A stretch of DNA of 64,000 nucleotides from Spirosoma lacussanchae. Lineage in GTDB: Bacteria; Bacteroidota; Bacteroidia; Cytophagales; Spirosomataceae. The position numbers were made by a program, and so were the translations under genes. The stretch spans positions 2,157,639 to 2,221,638 of the forward strand of contig NZ_SWJG01000001.1 of NCBI RefSeq assembly GCF_005870035.1. Direction: 5' to 3'. This document shows, piece by piece, positions 6,597 through 52,409 of the stretch. Position 1 is the stretch's first letter; each line of letters begins with the position of its first letter. Under the pieces are notes generated by a model, which was given only the letters and a program-made list of their open reading frames with translations, had not been told where the DNA came from and did no database searches.

Positions 6597-6615
6597 ACGA
6601 TTTTGAGCCATATTG

Positions 6616-6658
6616 AGCCCAGTTTCCTGATAGTCGGGAGGCTGGGCTTATTTTTTTA
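6616..6658 (+). terminator. rho-independent terminator after leuS
   Basis: AGCCCAG (6616-6622) pairs with CTGGGCT (6642-6648), followed by a run of seven T. It sits between leuS and the next plus-strand gene. Confidence 0.8.
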
Positions 6659-6661
6659 GGC

Positions 6662-8920: not shown

Positions 8921-8936
8921 GCGGGAGGGGATTGTT

Positions 8937-8979
8937 CCGGGTAGTAGCCCCACTTACCTGAGTCGGGGCTACTACCCGG
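8937..8979. terminator. bidirectional hairpin between convergent genes
   Basis: CCGGGTAGTAGCCCC (8937-8951) is perfectly complementary to GGGGCTACTACCCGG (8965-8979), a 15-bp stem with a 13-base loop. It lies between two converging genes and probably terminates both, although the T-tracts are poor. Confidence 0.7.
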
Positions 8980-8988
8980 AAACCGGCT

Positions 8989-10005
8989 TTAGGGAGCCAC
9001 CCCCTGCAGTGAGGTATCGGCCAGCGCCTGTCGTACCTGGGCTGTCAGGGTAAGCGAATGTTTGCGGGCTTCGTGGTCGAAGATAGGCGCGGTGATAATC
9101 AGCTCGTCGGCCTGCGTCTGGTCAAGGAAACTGGCCAGTCCCCGCTGTACCGTATCGGCCGAACCCACCGCCGAACAGCTCAGTACCGACTCGATACCTG
9201 CCAGTTCATAGTCGGGCCATAATGCCTGAATATCGTCGACCGGGGGTTGCATTTGCCGGGCTTTGCCGCGCCGGATGTGAAGAAACTGTTGCTGAACGGA
9301 GGTAAACAAGCGCTCGGCTTCCTGATCCGTATCGGCGGCTATGACGTTCACGGCCACCATCGCGTAGGGTTCCTGCAACTGAGCCGATGGCTTGAACTGC
9401 GACCGATACACCTGCAAAGCCCGCATCAGCTGCGCCGGTGCAAAGTGGGAGGCAAAGGCGTACGGTAAACCCAGCAGGGCGGCTAACTGGGCCCCGAACA
9501 GGCTGGACCCTAAAATCCAGATCGGTATATCTAAACCAGTGCCGGGAATGGCCTGAACGAACTGGCCGGAGTCGTCGGGCTGAAAATAACGCTGCAACTC
9601 GATGACATCCTGCGGAAACGTATCGGGCCCTGTCGCGTCCCGGCGCAGGGCCCGGGCGGTAGCCTGATCGGAGCCGGGCGCGCGACCCAGCCCCAGGTCG
9701 ATCCGGCCGGGGTAAAGCGATTCCAGCGTGCCGAACTGTTCGGCAATGACCAGGGGCGAATGGTTGGGAAGCATGATACCGCCCGAGCCAACGCGGATAG
9801 TCCGGGTGCCGCCGGCTACGTACCCAATCACAACCGAGGTAGCAGCGCTGGCAATACCAGGCATGTTATGGTGCTCGGCCAGCCAATACCGGTTGTAGCC
9901 TAGCTGTTCGGCGTGTCGGGCCAGATCTAATGTATTGTGTAGCGCCTGACTGGCGGTGTTGCCAGCCACAATGGGCGATAAATCAAGAACTGAAAAGGGA
10001 ATCAT
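8989..10005 (-). CDS. LLM-class flavin-dependent oxidoreductase (luciferase-like monooxygenase)
   Basis: A 338-residue cytosolic TIM-barrel enzyme of the bacterial luciferase superfamily, YhbW-like group, using FMNH2 or F420-type flavin. Family features visible include the N-terminal [11 protein letters not shown], the [20 protein letters not shown] stretch, [41 protein letters not shown], and the later [28 protein letters not shown]. The length is typical for the family. It is a single gene flanked by a convergent spermidine-synthase-like gene and an uncharacterised small gene. The substrate cannot be inferred. Confidence 0.93.
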
Positions 10006-10200
10006 ACTACGTTGGTGGGCCGTTTGGCCCGGTTTATGGCAACGGCAGGCCTGATCCGGTTGGATGAAGCACCGACCAATGCTTACCTATAGGCAACAAC
10101 GCAGCTTACCCGAACGGTTCCTGGCCATAATCGTCAGCGAGCCTGATTGGGCCGTAAAAACAGCAGCACGTATATGAAGGGTAATGGCTACAAGAGAAAG

Positions 10201-10569
10201 CTACTCCTGCGGAAAAACGATCTGATCCGCGCCATCGTGGGGCTCGAAGACGGAAACACGAAAGCCGCTGGCCGATTGGTTGGTGGCCGCATCGGGCGGG
10301 TTGCCGGTACTCAGGTAATCGAGCAGCTGTTCGGTACTGGCGAAGTGGATCGTATGGGTTGCCGGGCGGTCATGGAGCCGATCCGCGTCTGACGAGTCAG
10401 CCTTAACGGGTTGGATCAGCACCGTTACGACGGCGTAGTCATGGGTGCGGGCCATCACCTCGAGCGGAGTGCTGTCGGCTTGGGCGGTTTGTCGGTGAAC
10501 GTTCAGGATGGTGAAGGCATTGCCCTGATTGCCCATGTTATGCAGCAACCATTCATAGATAGTTTCCAT
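10201..10569 (-). CDS. hypothetical protein
   Basis: A 122-residue cytosolic protein that I do not recognise. It begins METIYEWLLHNMGNQGNAF and alternates hydrophobic strands and helices (YAVVTVLIQPVK, HTIHFASTEQLLDYLS), with no signal peptide, membrane segment or cysteine motif. Overlapping plus-strand frames look much less protein-like (basic and low complexity), so the minus frame is the better candidate. It stands alone between two intergenic stretches of nearly 200 bp. Probably a real small gene. Confidence 0.5.
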   Translation of the reverse strand: METIYEWLLHNMGNQGNAFTILNVHRQTAQADSTPLEVMARTHDYAVVTVLIQPVKADSSDADRLHDRPATHTIHFASTEQLLDYLSTGNPPDAATNQSASGFRVSVFEPHDGADQIVFPQE

Positions 10570-10755
10570 AGGGTACGTTGGTAGAGCTGGTGTACTGAAT
10601 AAAGGTCAGCGGCAACCGGCTTCGGGTACAACCGGGCGGTCCTGATCCTTGTTCAGGGTTTCTACCTGGCGGACCCCGGCCAATTTATCGGAATCACCTT
10701 CCCGAATAGCCGGGTAAGCTGGGCCAGACGCTGTTCTTTTTAGTAGGTTTGCGGC

Positions 10756-11613
10756 ATGAAAAACTGCATTGCTGTTAGTCTGCTGGCTCTTTCGCTGGTT
10801 ACCTGCTCGCCCAAAACCTATACGCGCATTCCTGCCGGTGGGGCCTATCAATTTTTTAAGTACACACCCGGTCAGCCCGCCCGTATTTCAGCCCACCGGG
10901 GTGGGGGCGATCTGAAAGGGTATCCCGAAAACTGCATCGAATCATTTGCGTACCTGGCTAAACAAACGCCCGTCATTATCGAGTGCGACATCGACCTGAC
11001 CAAAGACAGCGTACTGGTGATGATGCACGACGCTACCCTCGACCGCACTACAACCGGAACCGGCAAGCTGATCGAGAAAACCTACGCTGAGCTGAGCCCG
11101 TACCGGCTGGAAGATAACCAGGGCAACCCGACGCCCTACAAAATTCCAACCCTGGAGGAGGTTCTCCGCTGGGGAAAGAACAAAGTGGCCTTTACCCTCG
11201 ACGTGAAGCGAAACGTATCGTTTGAGAAAATAGTCGACATGATCCATCGCACCGGCGCGGGCGACTATGCCGCTGTGATCACCTATAACGCGCAGGATGC
11301 CGGTAAACTGCACAAGCTCGATCCGGCGCTGATGATCTCTGTCACGATCCGCAACCGCGCCGAATACGACCGACTGCGCGAACTGGGCGTTCCGGACAAC
11401 CGCATGATTGCTTTCGTGGGCGTCAAAGAACCGGATAAGGCGTTGTACGATTTTCTGCATCAGAAAGGGATTGCCTGCATCCTCGGCACCCTTGGTAACC
11501 TCGACCGGCAGGCCGCTGCCAAAGGCGACCAGCTTTATAAGAAATTTGCCGACAACGGGGCCGACGTAATGAGTACTGATCGGCCCCTGGAAATGGCAAA
11601 GGTGCTGTATTAA
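10756..11613 (+). CDS. glycerophosphodiester phosphodiesterase family lipoprotein
   Basis: A 285-residue GDPD-type TIM-barrel hydrolase that would cleave glycerophosphodiesters to glycerol-3-phosphate and an alcohol in the periplasm or at the membrane. The N-terminus is a lipoprotein signal ending LSLVTC (Cys17). The family active-site pattern is visible: HR at 47-48 (ISAHRGGGDLKGYPENCIESF), the metal ligands ECD at 76-78 and the second histidine His91 in MMHDATLDRTTTG. Late in the protein DVMSTDRPLEM matches the usual C-terminal TDxP motif. It is monocistronic, followed by a strong hairpin. Family call secure; whether phospholipid or teichoic-type substrates are used is unknown. Confidence 0.92.
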   Translation: MKNCIAVSLLALSLVTCSPKTYTRIPAGGAYQFFKYTPGQPARISAHRGGGDLKGYPENCIESFAYLAKQTPVIIECDIDLTKDSVLVMMHDATLDRTTTGTGKLIEKTYAELSPYRLEDNQGNPTPYKIPTLEEVLRWGKNKVAFTLDVKRNVSFEKIVDMIHRTGAGDYAAVITYNAQDAGKLHKLDPALMISVTIRNRAEYDRLRELGVPDNRMIAFVGVKEPDKALYDFLHQKGIACILGTLGNLDRQAAAKGDQLYKKFADNGADVMSTDRPLEMAKVLY

Positions 11614-11614
11614 G

Positions 11615-11659
11615 TCAATAATCCCGGCTTGCTGCGTTAGTTCAGGCCGGGATTATTGA
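11615..11659 (+). terminator. rho-independent terminator of the GDPD gene
   Basis: TCAATAATCCCGGC (11615-11628) pairs perfectly with GCCGGGATTATTGA (11646-11659), overlapping the end of the gene's stop region; the following bases are T/A rich. Confidence 0.75.
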
Positions 11660-11692
11660 TAGTTCTGATTATAAGTTGCTTTTAAGTAAATT

Positions 11693-11724
11693 AAGGCTTT
11701 CCTGAGCTAACTCAGGAAGGCCTT
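11693..11724 (-). terminator. terminator of the minus-strand aldolase/GNAT-nitrilase operon
   Basis: AAGGCTTTCCTGA (11693-11705) pairs with TCAGGAAGGCCTT (11712-11724) with one mismatch, immediately beyond the stop of the minus-strand gene that ends at 11732; on that strand it is followed by AATTTACTT. Confidence 0.65.
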
Positions 11725-11731
11725 CTATTCA

Positions 11732-13330
11732 TTAACTGGCTACCACAATGACCGGCGCCACGGCTTCGGGGTCGTTGTCGGGCGAAGCTTTTTTCTGCTT
11801 TAATGCCTTCTTGGCGGCTTTCTTCAGCGTGACATCGTAGAGGTCGGTCCGCCGGTCTTTCAGCACCTGTACTGAGCCGTGTTCATGCAGCTCTTTCAGC
11901 AGGCTCAAATCAACGTCGGCTATTAAAACCATTTCCGTATTCGGGGTCGCTTCTGCCTTCACCGCATTGGTTGGAAACTGAAAGTCAGATGGGGTAAATA
12001 CCGCCGACTGCGCAAAATTGATGTCCATGTTGTGCACTTTCGGCAAATTGCCGACGCAACCCGAAATCGCCACGTAACATTCGTTTTCAATTGCCCGGGC
12101 CTGGGCGCAGTGCCGTACCCGCGAGTATCCGTTCTGGGTATCGGTCAGGAACGGAACGAACAGAATCTGCATGCCCTGCTGAGCCAGAATCCGGCCCAGT
12201 TCGGGAAACTCAACATCGTAGCAGATCAGCATTCCGATCTTACCACAGTCGGTATCGAAGGCCCGAATCTCGTAGCCACCCACCATGCCGTAGTGACGCA
12301 CCTCGTTGGGGGTGATATGAATCTTCCGGTACTCTTCGTAGGAACCATCGCGCCGGCAGAGGTAAGCTACGTTGTACAGCTTGCCATCACTGTCGACGAG
12401 GGGCATACTACCGCCAACGATGTTCACATTATACGAGATGGCCAGTTCGCAGAGTTTGTCGCGCACCTCTTCGGTAAAGTCGGCCAGTTTTCGAATGGCT
12501 ACCGGCTCGGGCAGGTCGTTGAAGTCGGCCATGAGCGGGGTGTTGAAAAACTCCGGCAGCACCATAAAGTCGGCCCGGTAATCACTAACCGCGTTGGCAA
12601 AAAACTCAACCTGATCCAGAAACGCGTTCAGGTTTTTGAACAGGCGCATCTGCCACTGGATAACGCCCAGCCGGATAATGGAGTCGGTATGGGGGCGTTT
12701 GTCTTTCTCGACAACGTAATAAATATTGATCCACTCCAGCAGGGTGGCGTATTCCTTCGATTCTGTATCGCCGGGCAAGTAGCCGCGCAGGACCTTCCGG
12801 ACGTGGAAATCGTTCGAGATCTGGAACGTCAGCGTGGGGTCGTAAATCTCTTTCTGCTTTACCTTGGCGATGTATTCGCGCGGGCTCAGTTCGTCAGCGT
12901 ATTTATTATAATTCGGGATACGTCCACCCGCCAGAATCCCTTTCAGGTTGAGGGTTTCGCAGAGCTCCTTCCGGGCGTCGTAGAGCCGTCGGCCCAGGCG
13001 CAGGTCGCGGTAGTCAGGATGAACGAACACCTCGATGCCATACATGTAGTCGCCCTCGTCGCTGTGCGTTTTGAAGGTATAGCCACCGGTAATTTCGTGG
13101 TAGGTGTGGTTGTCACCAAACTGGTCGTACTTCACCCGAATGGCGAGCGCACAAGCCACCACTTTGCCGTCGACTTCGACGCAGAACTGGCCTTCGGGGA
13201 AAATTGTGAGCAGCTTGTTGATCTTACTTTTTTGCCAGTAATCTCCGCCAATGCCGCTGTATACCTCAATCATGGCCTCCTTGAGGTCGTCGTAATCGTC
13301 TTTCTGTAGTGTTCTGGTCTGAATATGCAT
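11732..13330 (-). CDS. bifunctional GNAT acetyltransferase / carbon-nitrogen hydrolase
   Basis: A 532-residue two-domain cytosolic enzyme. Residues 1-150 are a GNAT fold (GIEVFVHPDYRDLRLGRRLYDARKEL holds the acetyl-CoA R/Q-xx-G-x-G/R region). Residues about 218-510 are a nitrilase-superfamily amidohydrolase with the Glu-Lys-Cys triad: Glu260 (VLPEFFN), Lys336 (YRKIHITPNE) and Cys370 (LICYDVEFPE). This fusion occurs in several Bacteroidota. The ATG overlaps the TGA of the upstream threonine aldolase gene by one base, so the two are translationally coupled. Substrates of both domains are unknown. The tail is lysine-rich and then acidic. Confidence 0.92.
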   Translation of the reverse strand: MHIQTRTLQKDDYDDLKEAMIEVYSGIGGDYWQKSKINKLLTIFPEGQFCVEVDGKVVACALAIRVKYDQFGDNHTYHEITGGYTFKTHSDEGDYMYGIEVFVHPDYRDLRLGRRLYDARKELCETLNLKGILAGGRIPNYNKYADELSPREYIAKVKQKEIYDPTLTFQISNDFHVRKVLRGYLPGDTESKEYATLLEWINIYYVVEKDKRPHTDSIIRLGVIQWQMRLFKNLNAFLDQVEFFANAVSDYRADFMVLPEFFNTPLMADFNDLPEPVAIRKLADFTEEVRDKLCELAISYNVNIVGGSMPLVDSDGKLYNVAYLCRRDGSYEEYRKIHITPNEVRHYGMVGGYEIRAFDTDCGKIGMLICYDVEFPELGRILAQQGMQILFVPFLTDTQNGYSRVRHCAQARAIENECYVAISGCVGNLPKVHNMDINFAQSAVFTPSDFQFPTNAVKAEATPNTEMVLIADVDLSLLKELHEHGSVQVLKDRRTDLYDVTLKKAAKKALKQKKASPDNDPEAVAPVIVVAS

Positions 13331-14367
13331 CAGTACGTAGTCTCTAAAGTCAATTGCTGGAGTGCCCCGGCCATCTGGTCGATGTGCTCGTCGGTCAGGT
13401 GCAGATGGGTAACAAATCGAACCAGGTGCTTGCCGAAGGTAATACCCCGGATACCGATTTGCTCTAGTTTCTGAACGTAATCAGCCGCTAAAAGGGTTTC
13501 TGACAGCTTGAAAATGACAATATTCGTATCGATTGGATAAATTTCCTCTACCTCGGGGCGGCTGCTGAACAGCGTTCCGATCCGGCGGGCGCGGGCGTGG
13601 TCCTGCCGAAGCCGTTCAACGTGGTGGTCGAGGGCGTAAATACCCGCAGCCGCCAGAAAGCCAGCCTGGCGCCATCCCCCGCCCATGAGTTTCCGATACC
13701 GGCGGGCCTGTCCGATGAAGGAGGCCTTCCCCAGCAGCAGCGAACCGACCGGACAGCCCAGGCCTTTCGAGAGGCAGATACTGATCGAGTCGAACAGCTG
13801 GCCATAGGCCTGGGTGGGATCGCCGGTTTCGACAAGCGCGTTGAAAAGCCGGGCCCCGTCGAGGTGCAGCAGCAGGCCGTGTTCGTCGCAGACCCTGCGG
13901 ATAGCCGCTATTTCGGGAATGGTGTAGTAACAGCCCCCGCCCTTGTTGACGGTGTTTTCCAGCACCACCAGCCGCGACAGGGGTTTGTGTGGATCGGCGG
14001 GGCTATAAATGTACTCGCGAATCAGATCGGGGGTCAGCTTCCCCCGTATTCCCTGGGGCAGGCTAACCGAAGCCAGGGCGTTGGCCATGATACCCCCGCC
14101 TTCGTACAGATATACGTGCGAGAGCTGATCGCAGATCACATCGTCGCCGGGGCGGCAGTGGGTCCGGATCGCCAGCTGATTGGTCATGGTGCCGCTGGCG
14201 CAGAAAAGAGCCGCTTCCATGCCGAACATATGAGCGGCTTTAGCTTCCAGAGCATTTACCGTGGGGTCGTCGCCCAGCACATCATCGCCGAGCGGGGCGT
14301 TAAACATAGCCTCGCGCATGGCGGGCGTGGGTTGAGTAATGGTATCGCTACGAAGGTCAATCAGCAT
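13330..14367 (-). CDS. ltaE: low-specificity L-threonine aldolase (PLP-dependent)
   Basis: A 345-residue fold-type I PLP enzyme of the beta-eliminating lyase/threonine aldolase family, expected to cleave L-threonine or allo-threonine to glycine and acetaldehyde. Diagnostic features are the N-terminal IDLRSDTITQPTPAMREAM, GDDVLGDDPTVNALE, HLDGARLFNA, and the PLP lysine Lys201 in SICLSKGLGCPVGS. Length is typical. Its start overlaps the end of the upstream membrane-protein gene by 11 bases and its stop overlaps the downstream GNAT/nitrilase start, so three genes share one transcript. Specific substrate preference is not readable; the family member is clear. Confidence 0.93.
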   Translation of the reverse strand: MLIDLRSDTITQPTPAMREAMFNAPLGDDVLGDDPTVNALEAKAAHMFGMEAALFCASGTMTNQLAIRTHCRPGDDVICDQLSHVYLYEGGGIMANALASVSLPQGIRGKLTPDLIREYIYSPADPHKPLSRLVVLENTVNKGGGCYYTIPEIAAIRRVCDEHGLLLHLDGARLFNALVETGDPTQAYGQLFDSISICLSKGLGCPVGSLLLGKASFIGQARRYRKLMGGGWRQAGFLAAAGIYALDHHVERLRQDHARARRIGTLFSSRPEVEEIYPIDTNIVIFKLSETLLAADYVQKLEQIGIRGITFGKHLVRFVTHLHLTDEHIDQMAGALQQLTLETTY

Positions 14368-42882: not shown

Positions 42883-43782
42883 CTACTCTAGCTCGAACAG
42901 CAACAGCACCTCACCGCCCAGTTCAATCTGGTCGCCCGACTGAAGTGGGTAGACCAGCGTGGCGATATCGGCCCGCTCGATAGTATCATCCGGGTGAATA
43001 ATCTTGGTTTTATTGCCACTGGCAGGCAAGCCGCCCGGATCGACCAGCAGGGCGTAGCGTCGTTGAACGCTATCGTAGCGGATCGACGCGTGGGCCCGGC
43101 TAACGGCGCCATTGCCCTTTCCCCGTTGGGCGTCGAAATCGGGATCGTCGTCATTGACGATAACAATGTCGTTGGTGCGAACCCGACCCGAGTTGGTCTG
43201 GGTAGTCTGTCCGCGCCCGATGCAGAAGCTGGTTTGCCGGGTGGGGTCGAGGAGGTACTCAGGCTGCTTTGTCTGGCCCACCAGGGTGACGAGTCTGCCC
43301 AGCACGGGCGTATCGTCAGATTTCGAGCTATCGACGATGAACAGGCTGACGTTGCCGTCGCGGTAGGTACTGGCAGGTAGCTCATCGGCGAAGAAGGTAT
43401 AGTCGAACAGCCAGTTTTTGGGCAGTGTGATGTAGTTATCGGCCAGTTGTCGGCTCAGCTCCTGCTGAAACTTTCCTGGCTGGCTGACCCATAACGCCAC
43501 CTTATATAAGGCCTGTTCTTCCGGATCGCTGCATAGGATACCCAGCCTAATGCCGACGGGGACCGTATCTGGCTCGTTTTGATAGATCCGTAGTTTGCTG
43601 ACAATGAACCGGATCAGCTGCTCCCGGCGCTGAGCCGCGGGCGGAGGACCGGCTGGTGCGGGTGCCGGGCTGGCAGCAATCGGTTTGTCCGACAATGGGG
43701 GCTCTGTTGTTGGGGGAGCCGTGGGGCGTGACTCGGGGGAGCTGAACCCGAACCAGTTTTTTAGGTTTTCCAGTAGACTCAT
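42883..43782 (-). CDS. FHA-domain protein, last gene of the cell-wall phosphosignalling operon
   Basis: A 299-residue cytosolic protein. A Pro/Ala-rich stretch (20-50) is followed by an uncharacterised domain (51-180, QLIRFIVSKLRIYQNE...ELSRQLADNYITLPKNWLFDYTF). The C-terminal FHA domain (184-299) has the phosphothreonine-binding signatures GRG (189-191) and SRAH (228-231), then the strand LQSGDQIELGGEVLLLFEL. It would dock onto proteins phosphorylated by the operon's kinase. It lies 65 bp after the RodA-PBP gene on the same strand. A middle domain of this kind next to an FHA recalls FhaA-like proteins, but the relationship is inference. Confidence 0.88.
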   Translation of the reverse strand: MSLLENLKNWFGFSSPESRPTAPPTTEPPLSDKPIAASPAPAPAGPPPAAQRREQLIRFIVSKLRIYQNEPDTVPVGIRLGILCSDPEEQALYKVALWVSQPGKFQQELSRQLADNYITLPKNWLFDYTFFADELPASTYRDGNVSLFIVDSSKSDDTPVLGRLVTLVGQTKQPEYLLDPTRQTSFCIGRGQTTQTNSGRVRTNDIVIVNDDDPDFDAQRGKGNGAVSRAHASIRYDSVQRRYALLVDPGGLPASGNKTKIIHPDDTIERADIATLVYPLQSGDQIELGGEVLLLFELE

Positions 43783-43847
43783 CGCAGTAGGGTGTCGTTG
43801 GCCCGGCCCGTCGGATTGGTCGGGGAGCTGTTGGTTGGGTTCATAGG

Positions 43848-46800
43848 TTAAAAACTTCCCAGGTAATTACGCTGTTTCAGAATCGGTGCCACTACCTCGT
43901 TGGCTAGCTGCACGGCATCGGCCGACGACTCGCCCAGCTCGATCCGTATGGCCGTGACCGTATGCGACCGACCGTTGGGAGTCGGGGCAAAAAAAACATA
44001 CCAGCCGTCGTTTTGCTGCTCGCCCTGTACGATGCGTTCGGGGGTGCCGGTCTTACCAGCTACCCGAGCCACGCTGATTTTAGCCCGTCCGCCCGGATTC
44101 GATTGCTCAATCATGAACGACGTCAGCTGCCGGGCGTAGTCGGCTTGTCGGGCCAGGGGTTTGGCAGACCCCAGGGGTTGTGATTTGCCGGCCCGTTTCA
44201 GCACGTAGCGCGAGGGTTGCATGCGACCGTTGTTGGCGATACCAGCCGCCATACGGGCCAGCGACGCGGGTGTTGAGGTCAGTTTTCCCTGTCCCCACGC
44301 CAGCCCCGAGAACTCGCTGCGGTACCGGCGGGGGTATCGGGTACTCTGGTATAAGTTACGCCGAACGACAAACGACGAGTCGCGCCAGTGCTGCCGGATC
44401 TGCTGCTGCTCGGCTCCGGTATGCGTATCCGCGAACGAATAGCCACCCATCAGGTCGACGTTCATCCCCGTAGCCAGGTAAAGGTCGGCAAGTTCGTTGT
44501 CGAGGGTGTTGTCATTAGCGGCCCGGATGAAGTAAACGTTGCTTGACCGGACAATCGCTTTTCGCATGTCGACGGCTTCACCGCAGGGTTCCGACTCCCG
44601 CGTGCCGCGCCGGATGATCTCCGCGCACGAAATGGGGTAACTGACTTCAGACGCCGATGAGCCCAGCTTGTTGAACGCAGCCATTGCCGTCAGGATTTTG
44701 GCCGTTGAGCCGGGGGCGGTAGCGTAGGTCATGCCCAGGTCGCGCTCGGTGACCAGATAGGGCAGTTTAAGTCGATCCCGATCGGGCAACAGCATCGTTT
44801 CGGGCGTTTTCAGATTCGGCAGCGGGTACATAGCCGAAGCCAGCACATCGCCCGATGCCGCATCCATCACCACAACCGACAGTCGTTTGGTCGTAAAGGC
44901 CGACTGGGCGAGGGCATTTTGCAGGGCAACCTGTAACTCGGCGTTGACGCTCAGGTGCAGATCGCGGTTGCGGGCTTTGCGCTGCGCCACCTCGCGGCTG
45001 TCGATACCCGCCCGGAGGGCCGGGGCCAGCTCCCGGTAGTCGTAGACCGACAGGGTGCGGGTCTGCTGGACCGAGGGGCTGAACCGGTCGGCGCGGTATC
45101 GGGTGGCAACCAGGGTTGTTTTACGGGGACGACTATTGAAGCCGCGCAACTCGCTGAAGTGGGTCGCTTCGGCGTAGTAACCGTTGCTCTGCCCCCAGAA
45201 AAGCTGGGTGTTGAGGTCGCCGGTCCAGAAAAACAGCTGCTCGCCAAACGGGTAATAGCGTTGCAGCCGTTTCTGGGTCAGACGGGATAGCTCCTCGGGG
45301 GCCAGCCCGCTCTGCCGCAGCCGGGCGCGCTGCTGGTTGATCAGCTGCGGTGAGCTGGTGGCCAGGACCAGCCCATTCCGGTCGTAGAGCGTACCCGAAG
45401 CCAACACACGCGTCAGCCGCTCGATCCGGGGGTTGTAGCTATAGACCGGATCACCGGTGCGGGTAACGACGCGGGCGGGCCGCACAATGTATTCGTCGCC
45501 CCGCCAGCCGATAATCGGCATCAGCCTGCCGATCAGGATGACTACTCCCAGCAAAAACCCGGCAATACCGGCCATCAACACCCCGTCATACTGCTTCTCC
45601 AGATACTGCCGTTGTTCGGCCTGGCCGGGTCGGTTGGCCACGCTGAAAACGACTCCCATGGCCAGCAGATTGATTATCAAAGATATTTTGCCGTAACTCA
45701 GAAACGGTACGCTGATGCCGGTCAGGGGCAGCAGTCCGAGCGATCCGCTGGCGATGATCAGAAACTGAATGCCGGTCGATATGGCAATACCGGCCACCAG
45801 GAAAAAGCTGAATGGCTGGCCAGCCCGGCGGGCGTGCAGAAAAAGCCGGTGGAGCAGCAGCCCCATCAGCAGAAATACGGCAATGACGCCCAGCCCGCCC
45901 AGCTCTTCGCCTACGCTGGGCAGTATCATATCGGTATGGGCGGCTGGCATGGCATTGGCAAATCCTTTGCCCAGACCCTGTCCGGTCCAGCCCCCCGATG
46001 CCAGGGTCCAGAAGCTGTGGGCCAGATGATCACCCCCGTACACATCGTTGTCCCAGGGGTTAAGCCACATGGCTTTTCGATCGGCCAGCCGGTCACCCAC
46101 GAAGGGCAGCTGATCGCCGAAAGTGAACATGGCCATGACGAGCAGTAGCAATACCGGAGCCTCAGTCAGCAAAGCGCCCCAGCCCAGCGCCGTTCGCGAC
46201 CGCGCTTCGCCCTGCCAGACCATATAGGCCACCAGGGCCGCCAGGGTCAGCAGCGTTGCCAGACTGCCGGGTAAAAACCATAGCGCAACGCCGTAGCCCA
46301 GTCCGGTGGCCAGGGTCAGGGAGAGGTTACCGCGGGCAATGCTGTAGAAAAGCAGAAAGGTAAAGCACACAACCAGCGCTGGCCCCATGTCGCCCAGCAG
46401 CAGGTATAGCAGCATAAGAACCCCGGCCCCGGCCAGCGCACCGGCGCTCACGGCAAATCGCCAGCGCAGGTCGGGCAGTTGCCGAAGCTGTTGCTCATGG
46501 GCTGCGAAGAACCCGGCAAAAAACAGCAGGAGCAGGTATTTGGTGATTTCGCTGGGCTGAAACGTCAACCCCAGCACCGACAGGTTAACCCGGACACCAC
46601 TGCCTTCTGGCCCCGACCCGATCAGCAGGGTAAGAAACGCCAGCCCCAGCGCGAGAACCAGCCAGGTCCAGCCCGATAGCCGCACCGACGATCGACTTTG
46701 GAAGGTGACGAGCCAGTCAAACCGCCAGTCGGCGTAAAAACGACCTGCATTCAGCTGCGACAGAACCGCCATACCCGCCAGCCCGGCGGCAACGCCCTGT

Positions 46801-47825
46801 AGCGTTTGCCAGGCGTAAAGCATATCCTGCACCGGGTCCTGAATGGCCAGCAGCGTCAGTATCGAAATGCCTGTCAGCAGCATCAGCACGGGTAACAGCA
46901 GCGGGTCGGGCGCAAACCGCCGGAGCGACCAGAACCCCTGAACGGCCCAGAACGCCAGCAGAAACAGGCCGGCTATGGCCCAGAACTGAGCGGTGAAGGC
47001 CGAGGGCGTACGTACCGTAAAGGCATGGTCGGTCTTGAGCTGGCCGTAAACGACAGAGCCAATGAGCCGGAGCTGATGCGGCCGGCCGGTGAACGAAAAC
47101 TGCGGATCGCGGCTGAGTCGGCTGGTTCCTTTGCGGCTCCCAAACTCAAAACCGGGTTTCATCGGCACCACGCTATAGCCCGATCCATCGGTCAGACCCG
47201 TAAAGGAAAACCGGCCGTCGGCGTCGGTTCGGGCGTAGGTAAAGCGGTCGGGAAGGGTGTCGGGGCGGGCCGTGGCGGGGTGTTGCCTGAGTTGCACCAG
47301 CACGTCGGCCATCGGCTGGTCGTCCCGCAGAACCCGGCCCGACAGGCTCACCGAGCCTGTACCAGCACTGACGGTAGCGGCATAGGGGCGCGGATTGGTT
47401 TGCTCCCGCCGGTACAAAACCGAATCGAACCCCATCTGCTGGCGGGATGCCTGGAGTCGACTCTGAAAATCGACTCCGCCAATGCGGCTGCGCCAGACCA
47501 CGGGAGCCAGCACGGCGAACTGTCGTTTGTTGATAGCCCCCAGGTTCTCGGGCGCACCGTACTGGTTAAGTTTGGTAGCCAGCGAATCGGCAACCAGCGC
47601 CCTGTCTTTCGGGTCGGTATAGTAGTTGCCGCTATTGAGCAACCGCTGGATAGCGGCCGGTTTCAGGCCGGGCGTCAGGGCGAGGGCCTGCCCGCTGGCC
47701 AGGGCGTCGCTGGCGCGGTCAAGGTCAGGGTACAGATTCAGGTACAGCCGGGCAAACAGCAGCAGAAGCATGCCGGAAGCGCCGAGGAGATACAGACGTC
47801 CTGACGAAGGGGAAGCTGGGGTCAT
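43848..47825 (-). CDS. single-chain RodA/FtsW glycosyltransferase - penicillin-binding protein fusion
   Basis: A 1325-residue inner-membrane peptidoglycan synthase. Residues 1-30 are a membrane anchor, 31-280 are extracytoplasmic and include a carboxypeptidase-regulatory-like beta domain (about 155-240, VSLSGRVLRDDQPMADVLVQL...DADGRFSFTGL). Residues about 280-750 are the SEDS polymerase with FQPSEITKYLLLLF, the essential-type aspartate Asp632 in AHTDMILPSVGEELGGLG, and VPFLSYGKISLI. A further helix (about 785-810) leads to a class B PBP with dimerisation region and transpeptidase motifs Ser1040-x-x-Lys1043 (PGSTAKI), SSN 1094-1096 and KTG 1258-1260. SEDS and bPBP are normally separate partner proteins; here they are covalently joined in one frame. 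The kinase gene lies 55 bp upstream. Confidence 0.95.
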   Translation of the reverse strand: MTPASPSSGRLYLLGASGMLLLLFARLYLNLYPDLDRASDALASGQALALTPGLKPAAIQRLLNSGNYYTDPKDRALVADSLATKLNQYGAPENLGAINKRQFAVLAPVVWRSRIGGVDFQSRLQASRQQMGFDSVLYRREQTNPRPYAATVSAGTGSVSLSGRVLRDDQPMADVLVQLRQHPATARPDTLPDRFTYARTDADGRFSFTGLTDGSGYSVVPMKPGFEFGSRKGTSRLSRDPQFSFTGRPHQLRLIGSVVYGQLKTDHAFTVRTPSAFTAQFWAIAGLFLLAFWAVQGFWSLRRFAPDPLLLPVLMLLTGISILTLLAIQDPVQDMLYAWQTLQGVAAGLAGMAVLSQLNAGRFYADWRFDWLVTFQSRSSVRLSGWTWLVLALGLAFLTLLIGSGPEGSGVRVNLSVLGLTFQPSEITKYLLLLFFAGFFAAHEQQLRQLPDLRWRFAVSAGALAGAGVLMLLYLLLGDMGPALVVCFTFLLFYSIARGNLSLTLATGLGYGVALWFLPGSLATLLTLAALVAYMVWQGEARSRTALGWGALLTEAPVLLLLVMAMFTFGDQLPFVGDRLADRKAMWLNPWDNDVYGGDHLAHSFWTLASGGWTGQGLGKGFANAMPAAHTDMILPSVGEELGGLGVIAVFLLMGLLLHRLFLHARRAGQPFSFFLVAGIAISTGIQFLIIASGSLGLLPLTGISVPFLSYGKISLIINLLAMGVVFSVANRPGQAEQRQYLEKQYDGVLMAGIAGFLLGVVILIGRLMPIIGWRGDEYIVRPARVVTRTGDPVYSYNPRIERLTRVLASGTLYDRNGLVLATSSPQLINQQRARLRQSGLAPEELSRLTQKRLQRYYPFGEQLFFWTGDLNTQLFWGQSNGYYAEATHFSELRGFNSRPRKTTLVATRYRADRFSPSVQQTRTLSVYDYRELAPALRAGIDSREVAQRKARNRDLHLSVNAELQVALQNALAQSAFTTKRLSVVVMDAASGDVLASAMYPLPNLKTPETMLLPDRDRLKLPYLVTERDLGMTYATAPGSTAKILTAMAAFNKLGSSASEVSYPISCAEIIRRGTRESEPCGEAVDMRKAIVRSSNVYFIRAANDNTLDNELADLYLATGMNVDLMGGYSFADTHTGAEQQQIRQHWRDSSFVVRRNLYQSTRYPRRYRSEFSGLAWGQGKLTSTPASLARMAAGIANNGRMQPSRYVLKRAGKSQPLGSAKPLARQADYARQLTSFMIEQSNPGGRAKISVARVAGKTGTPERIVQGEQQNDGWYVFFAPTPNGRSHTVTAIRIELGESSADAVQLANEVVAPILKQRNYLGSF

Positions 47826-47880
47826 AGAGTCAAACGGTGGTACTGGTGCGCATCAGATGAAGGGGGCAGGTCCGGGTCGA

Positions 47881-49539
47881 TCAATCCAGGGAGTCAGACT
47901 CGTCGGATTCGTCATCGTCGGGGCTTTCCATAATCGTCATCAACGAATCCAGGTCGGGCGCAAACCGGTGATTAATCACTTTGCAGGTAACCCGAACGCC
48001 CCGGTCGCTGTTGGGGGCCGTACGGGTCAGGGTCATATTGGGGCCAACGGGGCTGAAAAACACATTTTCGGACTTGTACAGGCCGCCATTGTCCTTGTAG
48101 TAATTGACCCGCACCGCCACCGATGCAAAGTCAACCGAACTGGGGTTACGCAGCTGAATCTTCACGTTTTTGATGCCCCCGAAGAAACCAACCTTAAAAT
48201 CGGTAACCTCGGCACTTAGCTCACCAACGGCGGCTTTTGCCTGCTGTTTGCGCAGGGTTTGTTGCCGTTCGGCTTCCTCCTGTTGCTGCCGGAGGGTCTC
48301 TTTATCCAGCGCAGCGGAGTCGGTCGTGATGCCGTCGAGGCCCGTACCCGCTGGCGCTTCGGTGCTGGTTTCTGTCCGACTGCCGGTCTGTTTCGGGAGC
48401 AGGAAGAAGTAGTACACACCGGCTCCCGCCAGTAACACGGTCAACGCCAGTATAGCCCACGACAGTCCGCCCGACACCGACTGGCGCGGCCGGCGGGGCT
48501 GCGGAGCCGGTGGAGCAGCGGCTGCATGCGTGGCCGGGGGCTCGGCCAGCGGTTGAGAAGGGCGCGTTGCGGTGGTTGTTGCGGCTGGTACTCCGGGAGC
48601 CGGGGTGGCGGGCGCAGGCGTGTAGGCGGGACCCGCTACCGTCACAGTCGGCGGAATGGAAACGGGGCGGGCGTTGCTGGACCGGTTGGCCTGCAGGTAG
48701 TTCAGCTCAGCCTGTTTGAGTAGCCACGTTAGCTCGTCGGGGTCACTGATCCGGTCGGCGGCTTTTTTCTGCAGCAGTCCCCGCAACAAATCGTTAAAAT
48801 GGCTGAGCGGCTGACTGACCGCATCGACCGTCAGGACGGGGGGGGCTTCGGTCAGTACCTTGTTCATGAACGTGACAATTCCCGAATGATCGTCGAGCGC
48901 GAAGGGTACGCTGCCGTGCAGACATTCGTACAGCACCACCCCCAGCGAGTAATAATCCGTGGCTATGCCCACCCCTTTGGGATCATTGAATTGCTCGGGC
49001 GATGCGTATTCGTAGGTCATCAGCGACTGGCCGGTCAGGGTGTTCGACTGTTCATGCAGCCGCGCCACGCCAAAGTCGGTGAGGAGGAAATGCAGCTCAC
49101 CGCTCGGCAGGGGCCGGTACAGGATATTCTCCGGCTTGATGTCGCGGTGGATGATGCCCTGCGGATGGATGGCTTTGAACGCACTGGCCATCTGTAGCCC
49201 CAGCCGGATCGTGGTGGGTACGTCGATGCGCTGCTGACCGGCGAAGAGGTTCTTCAGGCTGCCGCCTTCAATCAGCTCCATAACGATGTAAGGCAGTTCG
49301 GCTTCGACCTGCACCTCCCGCACTTTAACAATGTTAGGATGGGCAATGCTGGTCATAATGGCCGACTCTCGCTGGAACCGCCGAATGGTCTCGGCATCGG
49401 TGTTGAGCGCGAAGTGCTTGATGGCCACCAGATCGCCCGTGGCCAGATGACGGGCTTTGAGGATGCGGGCGTTGCTGCGCCCCAGCTCACTCAGCACCTC
49501 ATAGCCAGGAAATCGGGTGTCGAATCGTATGGTGGACAT
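47881..49539 (-). CDS. membrane Ser/Thr protein kinase (Hanks type)
   Basis: A 552-residue kinase with cytosolic catalytic domain (13-275), Pro/Ala-rich linker, one transmembrane helix (about 358-381), a coiled segment and an extracytoplasmic C-terminal domain (about 440-540) ending in an acidic tail. Lys41 (VAIKHF), Glu58, HRDIKPEN (131-138) and DFG (155-157) are intact, so catalysis is expected. The glycine-rich loop is degenerate: after Gly20 the second and third glycines are Ser22 and Arg25. There are no PASTA repeats; the C-terminal domain is unfamiliar. The ATG overlaps the stop of the PP2C gene by one base. Confidence 0.93.
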   Translation of the reverse strand: MSTIRFDTRFPGYEVLSELGRSNARILKARHLATGDLVAIKHFALNTDAETIRRFQRESAIMTSIAHPNIVKVREVQVEAELPYIVMELIEGGSLKNLFAGQQRIDVPTTIRLGLQMASAFKAIHPQGIIHRDIKPENILYRPLPSGELHFLLTDFGVARLHEQSNTLTGQSLMTYEYASPEQFNDPKGVGIATDYYSLGVVLYECLHGSVPFALDDHSGIVTFMNKVLTEAPPVLTVDAVSQPLSHFNDLLRGLLQKKAADRISDPDELTWLLKQAELNYLQANRSSNARPVSIPPTVTVAGPAYTPAPATPAPGVPAATTTATRPSQPLAEPPATHAAAAPPAPQPRRPRQSVSGGLSWAILALTVLLAGAGVYYFFLLPKQTGSRTETSTEAPAGTGLDGITTDSAALDKETLRQQQEEAERQQTLRKQQAKAAVGELSAEVTDFKVGFFGGIKNVKIQLRNPSSVDFASVAVRVNYYKDNGGLYKSENVFFSPVGPNMTLTRTAPNSDRGVRVTCKVINHRFAPDLDSLMTIMESPDDDESDESDSLD

Positions 49540-50984
49540 TAGGGACGTACGGGTTTGGGTGAATCGGTCTGGCTTTGTACGCTAACCTGAATAACGGCAT
49601 TCTGGAAGCTGTCTTGCCGGATTTCTGCGCGAATGGGCAGGTCTACCTGTTGAAAATGGACCCTGACAAGCTGCAACTTCGTTTCGCGGCTGGTTTCAAT
49701 GCCTGTCTTAAATCCACTGATCACTATGTTTTCTAAACGAGTCGGTCCCGCACGCAGTATACGTAACGCTACGGCCGACCGCATCGTATCGGCGGGCACC
49801 AGTACCGTTAACCGCTCCGTACCGATGATGCTCTGCAGCGAATCGGCGAGGAGCAGGGGCGAGTTGAGCCGGATGGTGTCGGGGGGCAGCACCAGGCGTT
49901 TGTCGGCACTCTGGTACGCCACCCGAAGCAGTGAGTCGAGCGGACTGGCCGGTGGTAGTTCGGTTGCCGGCGCCCCGCTCGTCAGGCTGTCGGCTGGAGT
50001 GCTTGCATTTTCGGCCGTACCCGTCGGGTCTGCTGCCTGATTCTGGTACCATAAAAAACCGGCTACTCCCGCAGCCAGCAGGCCGAGCACCAGCCAGCGG
50101 CCGGTCCGGTTGCCAGTTTGTGGCCGGGTCGATGCCGTGGGCGCCGGAGCGGGCGTCGTTGCGGCTGTCGGCAGTGGGGCGGGCGCCACCATCCGATCTG
50201 GCCGGGGCTGGCTGGCCGACGGCTGGCGGGATGGCTGGGCGGTGTTGGTAGCCAGCACGACCGTAATATTATCGTTGCCGCCCGCGTCGTTGGCCAGCCT
50301 CACCAGGTCTGAGGCTTTTTCAGGAAGGGCTTTTTTCTGGTCCAGCACCGATCGGATCTGGGCCTGGGTAATCATATCGGTCAGCCCATCGCTGCAGAGT
50401 AAGAGCTGATCGCCCGGCTGGAAATCGGCTTCGCCCGATTCGAGAAAATCAGGATCGTCGACCCGGTGGGCGGCCGACCCGACTTCGCGCAGAATCTCGT
50501 TTCGGCGGGGGTGTTGCATGGCTTCCGCTTCGGTCAGCTCGCTGGCATCTTCCCGAACCCCAACCAGCGAGTGGTCGTGGGTCAGTTTGGTAAGGGTACC
50601 CTGCCGATAACGGTACAGGCGGGTGTCGCCCACATGCGCAAAAAAAAGTTTCCTGGACTGGCTATCGACAACGGCAACCGTCAGCACACAGCACATCTGC
50701 GCCAGCGCCCGATCCTGCTGCCGCCGGGTGTTGATCTGGTTATTGGCAAAAACGACCGCTTCGCGTAGCATGGAAAGCGGGTTTCCGGTTGGGGTGGTCA
50801 TGTACTGGGAGATCGACTCCTGCGCAATGGCCGCAGCCTGATCTCCGCCCGCATAACCCCCAACGCCATCAATCACCGCCAGCAGCGCACTGCCTTCCGC
50901 CCAGATCGGGGCACAGATAAACGTATCCTGGTTATCGGTTCGGCGCTGGCCGACATCGGTCTGACCGGTAATTTCTAACGACAT
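49539..50984 (-). CDS. membrane PP2C-type Ser/Thr phosphatase with extracytoplasmic beta domain
   Basis: A 481-residue protein expected to reverse the operon kinase. Residues 1-245 form the PPM catalytic domain with metal-binding aspartates in RTDNQD (16-20), Asp39 (VIDGVGGYAGG), Asp199 (CSDGLTDM) and Asp238 (GGNDNIT). A Pro/Ala/Thr linker leads to a transmembrane helix (about 296-313, GRWLVLGLLAAGVAGFLW). The remaining about 165 residues are outside; the pattern RLENIVISGFKTGIETSRETKLQLVRVHFQQVDLPI suggests a short right-handed beta-helix. The actinobacterial counterpart PstP has only a short external tail, so the sensor-like domain is notable. Confidence 0.92.
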   Translation of the reverse strand: MSLEITGQTDVGQRRTDNQDTFICAPIWAEGSALLAVIDGVGGYAGGDQAAAIAQESISQYMTTPTGNPLSMLREAVVFANNQINTRRQQDRALAQMCCVLTVAVVDSQSRKLFFAHVGDTRLYRYRQGTLTKLTHDHSLVGVREDASELTEAEAMQHPRRNEILREVGSAAHRVDDPDFLESGEADFQPGDQLLLCSDGLTDMITQAQIRSVLDQKKALPEKASDLVRLANDAGGNDNITVVLATNTAQPSRQPSASQPRPDRMVAPAPLPTAATTPAPAPTASTRPQTGNRTGRWLVLGLLAAGVAGFLWYQNQAADPTGTAENASTPADSLTSGAPATELPPASPLDSLLRVAYQSADKRLVLPPDTIRLNSPLLLADSLQSIIGTERLTVLVPADTMRSAVALRILRAGPTRLENIVISGFKTGIETSRETKLQLVRVHFQQVDLPIRAEIRQDSFQNAVIQVSVQSQTDSPKPVRP

Positions 50985-51061
50985 CGAATTCGATTACTGG
51001 TTAATATTATGTACACGCATTTCCTCGCCATTCACTCAATCGCCCAATCAAAAATCATCAC

Positions 51062-51145
51062 TTACCGGGGCAGGTTTCGGAAGTGCTGAACGACGAGGGC
51101 GACGACAAACAGGAGCAGCAGCACCGCAAGCAGGGCGTCTAGCAT
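51062..51145 (-). CDS. 27-residue single-helix membrane peptide
   Basis: A frame of 27 codons encoding MLDALLAVLLLLFVVALVVQ followed by HFRNLPR: one hydrophobic helix with a basic C-terminal end, a classic small bitopic protein. Its ATG lies four bases after the stop of the upstream FHA gene, and it is followed by the PP2C gene, so it sits inside the operon in a position suited to translational coupling. Longer in-frame starts run into the FHA gene and give non-membrane sequence. No homology call can be made at this length; a regulatory partner of the kinase, phosphatase or SEDS-PBP is possible. Confidence 0.55.
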   Translation of the reverse strand: MLDALLAVLLLLFVVALVVQHFRNLPR

Positions 51146-51149
51146 AGGG

Positions 51150-52148
51150 TCAGACTGTACGTTGAAAATGAAGGGTAACCATGTTGTTGAGCAACACCTG
51201 CGCCGTATCGGGCAGCGGGTACCACTGTGGGCTGGCGGGTTCGCTTCGCGCAATCAGCTGCTCGTTGACCCGGGTTTCGTTGCGGCTGAACGAGGCTATC
51301 TGAAACGAACCGGAAGCGTCGTGGTAGCGAATCCGGGCGTGGGGGTTCGAAACGTAGGCCGATTCGAGCAGCAGGTAGTTCGGGAAGTGCTGGTTGTCGG
51401 GTTCTTTGCGGGCTATCACGATCTCGCGGTCGCGCATCCGGCAGTTGCCTTCTTTATTCAGTTCGGCCAGGTAATAGGATATCTCGGCCAGCACATCGCC
51501 GGGTTTCTGGGGCTGGCTGGGGGCCATGCGGGTACCGCTGCCTACCGCCAGAGGGGCCGGGGGTGCGGCTGTATCGAACCCAAACCGTACCACAAACGCA
51601 CCCGGCTCGCGGAAGTCGATATGCTGGAACATATTCAGGTCTACGTCTACCTTCTCGTAGCGGTTGGTTTGCCGAACCCGGCGCGTCACGTTGAGTCGGT
51701 CGGGCGTCTGGCTCTGTGCGTTGCCGGGCAGAATACCGGTCAGCGCCCCTACCACGAACACATCGGTCGGGCTGACGGGCTCCCCGCCGAACTCGCGCCC
51801 GCCCCCGAATTTGAAGAACCAGCTGGACGCTACCGGTACCACCCGTTCATACGACGGCTTCTGCGCGTCGATACTGCTCATGAACGCGTTGACGGCTTCG
51901 TTGACAATGACCGGAAACGCATTTTGCCGTTCCTCGTAGGTATCGGGGTGCAGAATGATGAGAAAATGGGCGTTGAAGAGCAGGCTGGAACCGACGGACT
52001 CGCGCCGGATAGACTCCTCAAACGAGGATACCAGTTCGTGCAGAATCCGCGTGTTGGTAATGGTAGCAGTCGGGTTGGACTGGGCGTCGCTGGTCGGGAC
52101 CAGGAGCTTGCCCAGTTTACTAAACCAGGTCGTTGGCTGATTGGCCAT
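51150..52148 (-). CDS. FhaA-like protein with degenerate FHA domain
   Basis: A 332-residue cytosolic protein starting at the ATG at 52148. Residues 25-100 (TRILHELVSSFEESIRRESVGSSLLFNAHFLIILHP) recall the DUF3662 N-terminal domain of actinobacterial FhaA. After a linker with Pro/Ala, residues 240-332 have the FHA strand pattern with IVIARKE (in place of GR), VSNPHARI (266-273, keeping Ser and His) and SRNETRVN (288-295). Phosphothreonine binding is plausible although the first motif has lost its glycine. It is the first gene of the minus-strand cell-wall signalling operon, followed by the 27-residue peptide and PP2C. Confidence 0.75.
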   Translation of the reverse strand: MANQPTTWFSKLGKLLVPTSDAQSNPTATITNTRILHELVSSFEESIRRESVGSSLLFNAHFLIILHPDTYEERQNAFPVIVNEAVNAFMSSIDAQKPSYERVVPVASSWFFKFGGGREFGGEPVSPTDVFVVGALTGILPGNAQSQTPDRLNVTRRVRQTNRYEKVDVDLNMFQHIDFREPGAFVVRFGFDTAAPPAPLAVGSGTRMAPSQPQKPGDVLAEISYYLAELNKEGNCRMRDREIVIARKEPDNQHFPNYLLLESAYVSNPHARIRYHDASGSFQIASFSRNETRVNEQLIARSEPASPQWYPLPDTAQVLLNNMVTLHFQRTV

Positions 52149-52409
52149 GGATGAATACAAGAAGGATGCTTGCTACAGGGTTAACGGTGTGGGTGAAAAA
52201 ATCTGTCAGACCAGGCCTGTTTTTTGAATCCGGCACCGCTACAGGCTCAAAACGAAAACCGCGAAAGATAGTCGGCCTTCACCAGTTTCATCGCTAATCT
52301 TTGTAAGCGGTGGTTAAAACGGGCAGACAGCAGCTCTCAGCTACCCGACAGTGACGGACCCGCGACCGGTGGTGAACAGACATAGAGCCAGTCTGTCAGG
52401 TTAGTTTCG

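Follow-up and report, generated by a model that had tools for sequence, protein, structure and literature searches.

Gene content of the locus

We analyzed a locus on the minus strand of a 64,000-nucleotide stretch of the Spirosoma lacussanchae genome, hereafter called the window, which lies on contig 1 (2.52 Mb). The locus encodes two forkhead-associated (FHA) proteins, a miniprotein, a PP2C-type phosphatase, a Hanks-type kinase, and a fusion of a SEDS (shape, elongation, division, and sporulation) protein with a class B penicillin-binding protein (bPBP). An initial annotation had described six consecutive minus-strand genes, with the kinase and PP2C genes overlapping by one base, and both points were confirmed by open reading frame (ORF) calls, Pfam searches, and motif checks. 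In transcription order, the features are as follows:

51150..52148, minus strand: FHA1, 332 aa; ORF and Pfam FHA match (E = 0.00024)
51062..51145, minus strand: miniprotein MLDALLAVLLLLFVVALVVQHFRNLPR, 27 aa, a single helix; ORF, scored scan, and dN/dS
49539..50984, minus strand: PP2C-type Ser/Thr phosphatase, 481 aa; Pfam PP2C_2 match (E = 4.6e-13) and motifs
47881..49539, minus strand: Hanks-type Ser/Thr kinase, 552 aa; Pfam Pkinase match (E = 1.7e-44) and motifs
43848..47825, minus strand: SEDS-class B PBP fusion, 1325 aa; Pfam matches, hydropathy, and motifs
42883..43782, minus strand: FHA2, 299 aa; Pfam FHA match (E = 0.0089) and pocket residues

The miniprotein starts 4 bp past the FHA1 stop, and the remaining junctions measure 77 bp, a one-base overlap (PP2C stop and kinase start), 55 bp, and 65 bp. 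The ATG at 52148 is a possible start of FHA1, two close relatives likewise beginning with MANQP, and an alternative TTG lies upstream at 52160. A promoter scan returned three sites against a shuffle mean of 3.3, none of them before FHA1; terminator-like sites numbered 19 against 9.7 in shuffles and were left uninterpreted.

The SEDS-PBP fusion

Within the single 1325-aa ORF, Pfam recognizes both FTSW_RODA_SPOVE (E = 4.4e-41) and Transpeptidase (E = 3.9e-25). The protein begins with a transmembrane (TM) segment (residues 11-31) and an N-terminal stretch of about 245 residues, followed by the SEDS block (approximately 275-732), a further TM segment (745-776), and the transpeptidase domain (983-1316). 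Its N-terminal domain holds a CarboxypepD_reg-like part (160-227) that falls under the Pfam cut-off; a single-sequence model of this domain, with a predicted local distance difference test (pLDDT) score of 40, was not used. The motifs HTD (630-632), SxxK (1040-1043), SxN (1094-1096), and KTG (1258-1260) are present, and their residues are invariant in nine aligned sequences, including that of the window. D632 of HTD is, judging by the known family motifs, probably the essential SEDS aspartate. With its family match and this putative loop aspartate, the SEDS part belongs to the SEDS glycosyltransferases (GT119), and the transpeptidase domain with SxxK, SxN, and KTG is that of a class B PBP, its activity being predicted from sequence.

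When 20 genomes, 17 of them with the fusion, were searched with PF01098, two other SEDS genes were found in all 17 fusion genomes, so that the fusion is an extra synthase. The sampled other SEDS proteins form two clades, one with Escherichia coli RodA (support 100/96) and one weakly joined by E. coli FtsW (81/79).

FHA proteins, kinase, and phosphatase

FHA1 comprises an N-terminal domain and a C-terminal FHA domain, with no TM segment in a hydropathy scan. In its AF2 model (pLDDT 77), the C-terminal part matches FHA structures including 2lc1, the FHA domain of Rv0020c; the best 50 of 65 fold-search matches at E ≤ 0.001 are FHA domains or FHA-holding assemblies, judging by their titles, and none of these best 50 of 65 matches the N-terminal domain. 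The H residue is kept in all 16 aligned FHA1 sequences, with the other pocket positions looser. In FHA2, which likewise has no TM segment in a hydropathy scan, the pocket residues G189, R190, S228, R229, and H231 are invariant in 15 aligned sequences. Such FHA pocket residues bind phosphothreonine. The FHA match of the window's FHA2 falls below the Pfam cut-off when taken alone; all 15 aligned FHA2 proteins match FHA, and a profile comparison of the FHA2 and FHA1 families gave an E value of 2.2e-8 across the FHA domain. An N-terminal Swt1-like HEPN domain was observed on 2 of the 15 aligned FHA2 members, one of them at locus L077 (13435-14805).

The kinase carries the motifs VAIK38, HRD131, and DFG155, one TM segment (353-383), and a C-terminal tail in which Pfam finds no PASTA domain. 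Against the NCBIfam model PknB_PASTA_kin it scored 187 bits (cut-off, 450), the match ending at residue 432. The phosphatase has the motifs DNQD17, DGVGG39, SDGLTD198, and NDN237, together with a C-terminal tail; a hydrophobic stretch at 294-312 scored 1.42, just below the scan cut-off of 1.5. The corresponding stretch exceeded 1.5 in 11 of 13 other module PP2Cs, and none was found in L081.

A selected miniprotein follows FHA1

A scored scan for ATG-started ORFs of 20 to 35 residues with a strong helix, applied to the gap after FHA1 in 36 regions, found a miniprotein-like ORF in 35 of them, compared with 0.43 expected from dinucleotide shuffles and 0 in antisense; these regions are not independent, 20 being main copies from the window's own family. 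The sole miss, L069, showed the miniprotein in a wider scan, and inspection by eye places such an ORF after FHA1 and ahead of the following gene in all 37 regions, including plasmid copy L116. Differences at codon positions 1, 2, and 3 amounted to 1159, 361, and 2028 (pair sums over 18 near sequences), and the median dN/dS was 0.115 (100 usable of 153 pairs, 18 sequences). By these sequence measures, the miniprotein is under selection.

In the actinobacterial loci, the same slot is occupied by FhaB, in which an FHA domain comes after an N-terminal helix. The miniprotein is a 27-aa helix only, without the FHA domain that accompanies the N-terminal TM helix of FhaB. Its descent from the FhaB helix is a guess, and a helix so short cannot prove it.

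The operon is conserved in Spirosoma and across several Bacteroidota families

A scan of genome contigs yielded 17 near loci in Spirosoma, Larkinella, and Fibrisoma, and the order FHA1-PP2C-kinase-SEDS-PBP-FHA2 is kept in all 17. When flanks of up to approximately 10 kb were compared (ORFs of at least 150 aa, more than 60% identity), only 15 of 136 near-locus pairs had a flank gene in common. Because the order is the same throughout while the flanks vary, the gene set is more than a chance grouping and belongs together. The fusion was found in 27 of 36 same-genus genomes (counting the host's own and one contig-end fragment) and in 0 of 23 other genomes searched; that of the host is 97% identical to its counterpart in Spirosoma sordidisoli. 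A second kinase, which the initial annotation had not noticed, stands before the fusion in 16 of the 17 near loci. S. sordidisoli and the window have one kinase only, and since both are without the second, it was probably lost in their ancestor.

Locus L116 (NZ_CP089545.1, 69767-80323) places the whole operon, with two kinases, on a 137-kb plasmid of Spirosoma oryzicola. This copy also carries the miniprotein ORF, although the plasmid's gene table, known to be incomplete, does not list it. In L032 (Spirosoma telluris, 4300-13977), the matches to several operon genes are split into shifted pieces, through decay or sequencing error.

Farther away, a profile of nine fusions matched 16 of 395 phylum genomes at 1e-20, and at least 15 hold the fusion, a lower bound because two candidates were scored per genome. 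The sixteenth match, G268, is a separate 364-aa SEDS gene and was not counted as a fusion. The fusion genomes span six families: f1 (3 genomes), f22 (5), f23 (2), f37 (3), f44, and f58. The initial annotation had proposed a search for the neighborhood across Bacteroidota; with several families and all 17 near loci retaining it, the arrangement is not a peculiarity of a single strain.

Twenty fetched stretches were then read with profiles of the near proteins. FHA1, PP2C, fusion, and FHA2 occur together in L065 to L073, L077, and L081; the FHA2-like gene is on the opposite strand in L082 and L083, the L084 stretch ends within the fusion, and L079 has no fusion in the profile reading of its stretch. 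At L078 (8262-12416), PP2C, SEDS, and transpeptidase form one 1384-aa chain, with Pfam matches to all three. Kinase positions vary among the distant loci, and the f22 loci follow the actinobacterial order FHA1-PP2C-SEDS-PBP. Wall genes lie near some distant copies: an SLT-LysM gene directly before FHA1 in L077 and a DPBB lytic transglycosylase gene adjoining FHA1 in L074.

In some genomes there is a second, divergent fusion locus (L080 to L084). Among these, L080 is one more copy of the fusion, with no recognized FHA neighbor, and L081, found in a genome of the same genus, clusters with the f22/f23 type, a placement that suggests interfamily transfer. Upstream of FHA1 in L077 (698-7342), we observed a WD40-propeller kinase, a sigma-54 activator, and the SLT-LysM gene.

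The SEDS part groups with SEDS of the actinobacterial locus

A blastp search located all seven genes of the actinobacterial fhaA-fhaB-pstP-rodA-pbpA-pknA-pknB locus in Nocardia (L119), Tsukamurella (L123), and Nonomuraea (L115). These three complete loci, together with Streptantibioticus L120 (in which the other genes are absent from its 12.5 kb), supplied the actinobacterial RodA-type rows of a 64-row SEDS tree. In this tree, all 23 fusions fall into a single clade (100/100); together with the four RodA-type rows from Actinobacteria and a single clostridial one, they split from the 36 others with 100/99 support; a Tsukamurella FtsW row falls among the 36, on the FtsW side. Approximately unbiased (AU) tests rejected the union of the fusion with Bacteroidota RodA (p = 0.00012) and with FtsW (p = 0.0033), and with these unions the reading of the SEDS half as a local RodA/FtsW duplicate. 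After removal of eight of the eleven long rows, fusion and actinobacterial rows still grouped at 100/99, and both alternatives were again rejected (p = 0.0053 and 0.0078). The trees thus support a clade shared by the SEDS part and the SEDS of the actinobacterial locus. In the PBP tree, the clostridial sequence (L127) groups with actinobacterial PbpA (100/99).

In the PP2C tree, the module PP2Cs (11 rows) form one clade (100/99) apart from the other PP2Cs of the same genomes, which were represented by ten rows (of twelve loci, two gave no match and were dropped, and among the ten rows two pairs were identical or nearly identical genes). The kinase tree, from which L069_kinB, L073_kinA, L143, and L073_kinB (motif not found) were omitted, unites Spirosoma kinases 1 and 2 in one clade (100/99) and PknA with PknB in another (100/99), the f22-type kinases forming a third. 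With the pairs in separate clades, the two-kinase arrangements appear to have separate origins, and of all parts of the locus the kinases show the lowest conservation. Peptidoglycan-binding tails suspected by eye on distant-locus kinases are not claimed, as Pfam lists none (for two of the kinases, among the best 25 rows).

A candidate phosphorylation-gated synthase

The best-studied cases of kinase-controlled wall synthesis are those of Actinobacteria and Firmicutes, and mycobacteria are the best-known bearers of a gene layout of this kind. Altogether, the results make it likely that the operon specifies an additional, dedicated peptidoglycan synthase of the SEDS-bPBP type, switched by reversible phosphorylation on Thr/Ser, and that this operon is related by descent, as a Gram-negative version, to the actinobacterial locus. 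Its gene content, motifs, conservation as a unit, two further host SEDS genes, SEDS grouping, and miniprotein selection are directly established, and from them we infer the catalytic, binding, and regulatory steps. The synthase would work besides RodA-PBP2 and FtsW-FtsI, its glycan polymerase and transpeptidase kept together at all times by their single chain. With its C-terminal tail, the membrane kinase may sense the envelope, and its substrates may be cytoplasmic sites in the kinase itself, in the tails of the synthase, or in partner proteins. FHA1 and FHA2 would bind these phosphothreonines and attach to the synthase, and the PP2C, probably membrane bound, would reset the switch. The miniprotein may be a membrane subunit, probably contacting the TM bundle or anchoring FHA1.

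The resemblance to the actinobacterial locus that the initial annotation had asserted is borne out by the SEDS clade, the linked gene set, and FhaA_N matches in relatives of one genus; it does not extend to separate RodA and PbpA, which are here one polypeptide, and the PBP and PP2C trees leave it undecided. In both layouts an FHA protein comes first, a membrane-helix protein second, and a PP2C third, followed by SEDS and bPBP; kinases are linked, and the SEDS proteins are of one clade. In Spirosoma, however, SEDS and PBP are fused with an added N-terminal domain, a second FHA protein comes last, the miniprotein replaces the TM-FHA protein FhaB, the kinases lack PASTA and fall in separate clades, and the host keeps two other SEDS genes. 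The likeness in layout is plausible; orthology of the kinases to PknA/PknB, like the function of the locus, is unproven.

A number of results weigh against this reading. The order in which the rows of fusions, Actinobacteria, and Clostridia branch is weakly supported (79/80), and the SEDS trees contain long branches, for which the warning persists after trimming. The PBP tree leaves the fusion unplaced (with actinobacterial and clostridial rows, p = 0.205; with PBP2, 0.0835; with FtsI, 0.00077, rejected), and the union of module PP2C with PstP is neither shown nor rejected (p = 0.211). The kinases are lineage specific: the initial annotation's view of the kinase as a PknA/PknB counterpart gained no backing from the tree, in which union of the Spirosoma kinases with PknA/PknB is neither shown nor rejected (p = 0.319), or from Pfam, which finds no PASTA. 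Of the two trees that it had called for, that of SEDS agrees with an actinobacterial connection and that of the kinases leaves it undecided. FHA1 had also been called FhaA-like. The window's FHA1 has no Pfam FhaA_N match, and a profile comparison of the FHA1 family with three actinobacterial FhaA N-domains was in register but weak, at 11% probability. The description fits some relatives better: 3 of 16 aligned members match FhaA_N, and in single scans of six relatives L074 (27.4 bits) and L075 (26.5 bits), both of one genus, passed the 25-bit cut-off, with matches under the cut-off in L076, L077, and L078 and none in L066. Furthermore, L074 to L076 have FHA1, fusion, and FHA2 only, with no module kinase or PP2C beside the fusion, so control by neighbors is not universal; and the fusion is absent from 9 of 36 same-genus genomes, making it dispensable to the genus.

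Alternatively, the Bacteroidota set was built independently from common parts (SEDS, PBP, kinase, PP2C, and FHA), its likeness to the actinobacterial locus being superficial. This is unlikely in our view. Kinases not demonstrably kin to PknA/PknB, the separate clades of the Spirosoma-relative and actinobacterial kinase pairs, undecided PBP and PP2C trees, long SEDS branches, and a partly different gene order, in which the Spirosoma kinase sits between PP2C and SEDS, all speak for convergence, but it has to contend with the SEDS split and the rejection of both Bacteroidota alternatives even without the eight long rows, with FhaA_N above cut-off in two relatives, and with f22 loci that follow the actinobacterial order, the FhaB slot being filled by a membrane-helix protein. 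It is improbable that an ordinary RodA-PBP2 or FtsW-FtsI pair was duplicated and fused within Bacteroidota and gathered its regulators later: the protein families are the same and PBP2 is not firmly rejected as kin of the PBP half, yet grouping the SEDS half with Bacteroidota RodA or FtsW, and the PBP half with FtsI, was rejected.

The synthase might instead be active only in a special state, such as stress or a particular shape, or polymerize another lipid-linked glycan. An extra SEDS beside the usual two, missing from a quarter of same-genus genomes and bearing an added N-terminal domain, would suit this distinctly improbable alternative, whereas the invariant transpeptidase motifs point to peptidoglycan. 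Very improbable is an anti-phage or prophage module of the kinase-kinase-phosphatase (KKP) type that incidentally holds a SEDS-PBP gene. The resemblance lies in the order PP2C-kinase-kinase of 16 of 17 near loci (compare PMC11341870), in matches of the window kinase to PADLOC defense-system kinases and of the PP2C to one PADLOC model, and in a patchy occurrence with one plasmid copy. However, PADLOC gives nothing for the SEDS-PBP or FHA proteins, its kinase matches span the kinase domain common to all such kinases, and the kinases are the part of the locus that is conserved least; the window has one kinase, joined to a wall synthase and without the fused cold-shock or FHA domain (Pfam) that KKP kinases feature.

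Comparison with known systems

The mycobacterial pstP gene shares a transcript with rodA and pbpA, and the fhaA and fhaB products are phosphothreonine readers that regulate growth and division; gene linkage is reported for Actinobacteria, with pknB-fhaA linkage also in a subset of Firmicutes (passages of PMC6554272). Natural one-ORF SEDS-PBP fusions are already on record, in a passage of PMC10449877 that cites the Rhodococcus RHA1 genome (its reference 18). That fusion, known to us from the citation and not by sequence, likewise joins polymerase and transpeptidase in one ORF, in a different phylum. In the clostridial cluster of Monoglobus (L127), FHA, SEDS, and PBP genes adjoin as well; unlike the Spirosoma locus, it has no fusion, and no kinase or PP2C is annotated within the 11.8 kb fetched.

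Slin_1280 of Spirosoma linguale, one of eight PBPs in Table 3 of PMC8225782 and named there an FtsW/RodA/SpoVE family protein, is probably the S. linguale copy of the fusion, going by the table name and not by alignment. It occurs once in that paper, in the table, and the words kinase and FHA are absent from the whole text. The same paper reports unsuccessful attempts to edit the S. linguale genome. Among the matches listed in the open literature (titles, abstract openings, and passages, with subscription papers and preprints outside the scope), we found no description of the locus in Bacteroidota, nor does one occur in the accessible part of PMC6207328. In the portions available, PMC10693644 contains neither FHA nor fusion, PMC10920833 neither fusion nor fused, and PMC12088040 neither FtsW, RodA, nor transpeptidase; the FhaB of PMC11809585 is, in the passage available, an adhesin.

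More tentatively, and with some doubt on our part, the fusion may belong to a third ancient SEDS-bPBP synthase branch, apart from RodA and FtsW, linked to FHA proteins, and spanning Actinomycetota, some Clostridia, and Bacteroidota. In Bacteroidota the synthase would have become a single chain with an obligatory membrane subunit of 22 to 33 residues derived from the FhaB anchor; phosphothreonine reading by two FHA proteins would be the ancestral gate, with the kinases swapped by lineage.

In this Gram-negative bacterium, one locus brings together a fused synthase, two FHA readers, and a kinase with its phosphatase. Since the window genome has only two PF00069 kinases in total and the locus links all the parts, whether a SEDS-bPBP synthase is gated by phosphothreonine is directly testable here. 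The other kinase lies inside a second FHA/PP2C/kinase cluster of the same genome (L143, 4690-11003; contig 1, approximately 1761.7-1768.0 kb), which contains a gene that looks caspase-like by eye, along with a 751-aa kinase, with no SEDS or PBP seen in the cluster.

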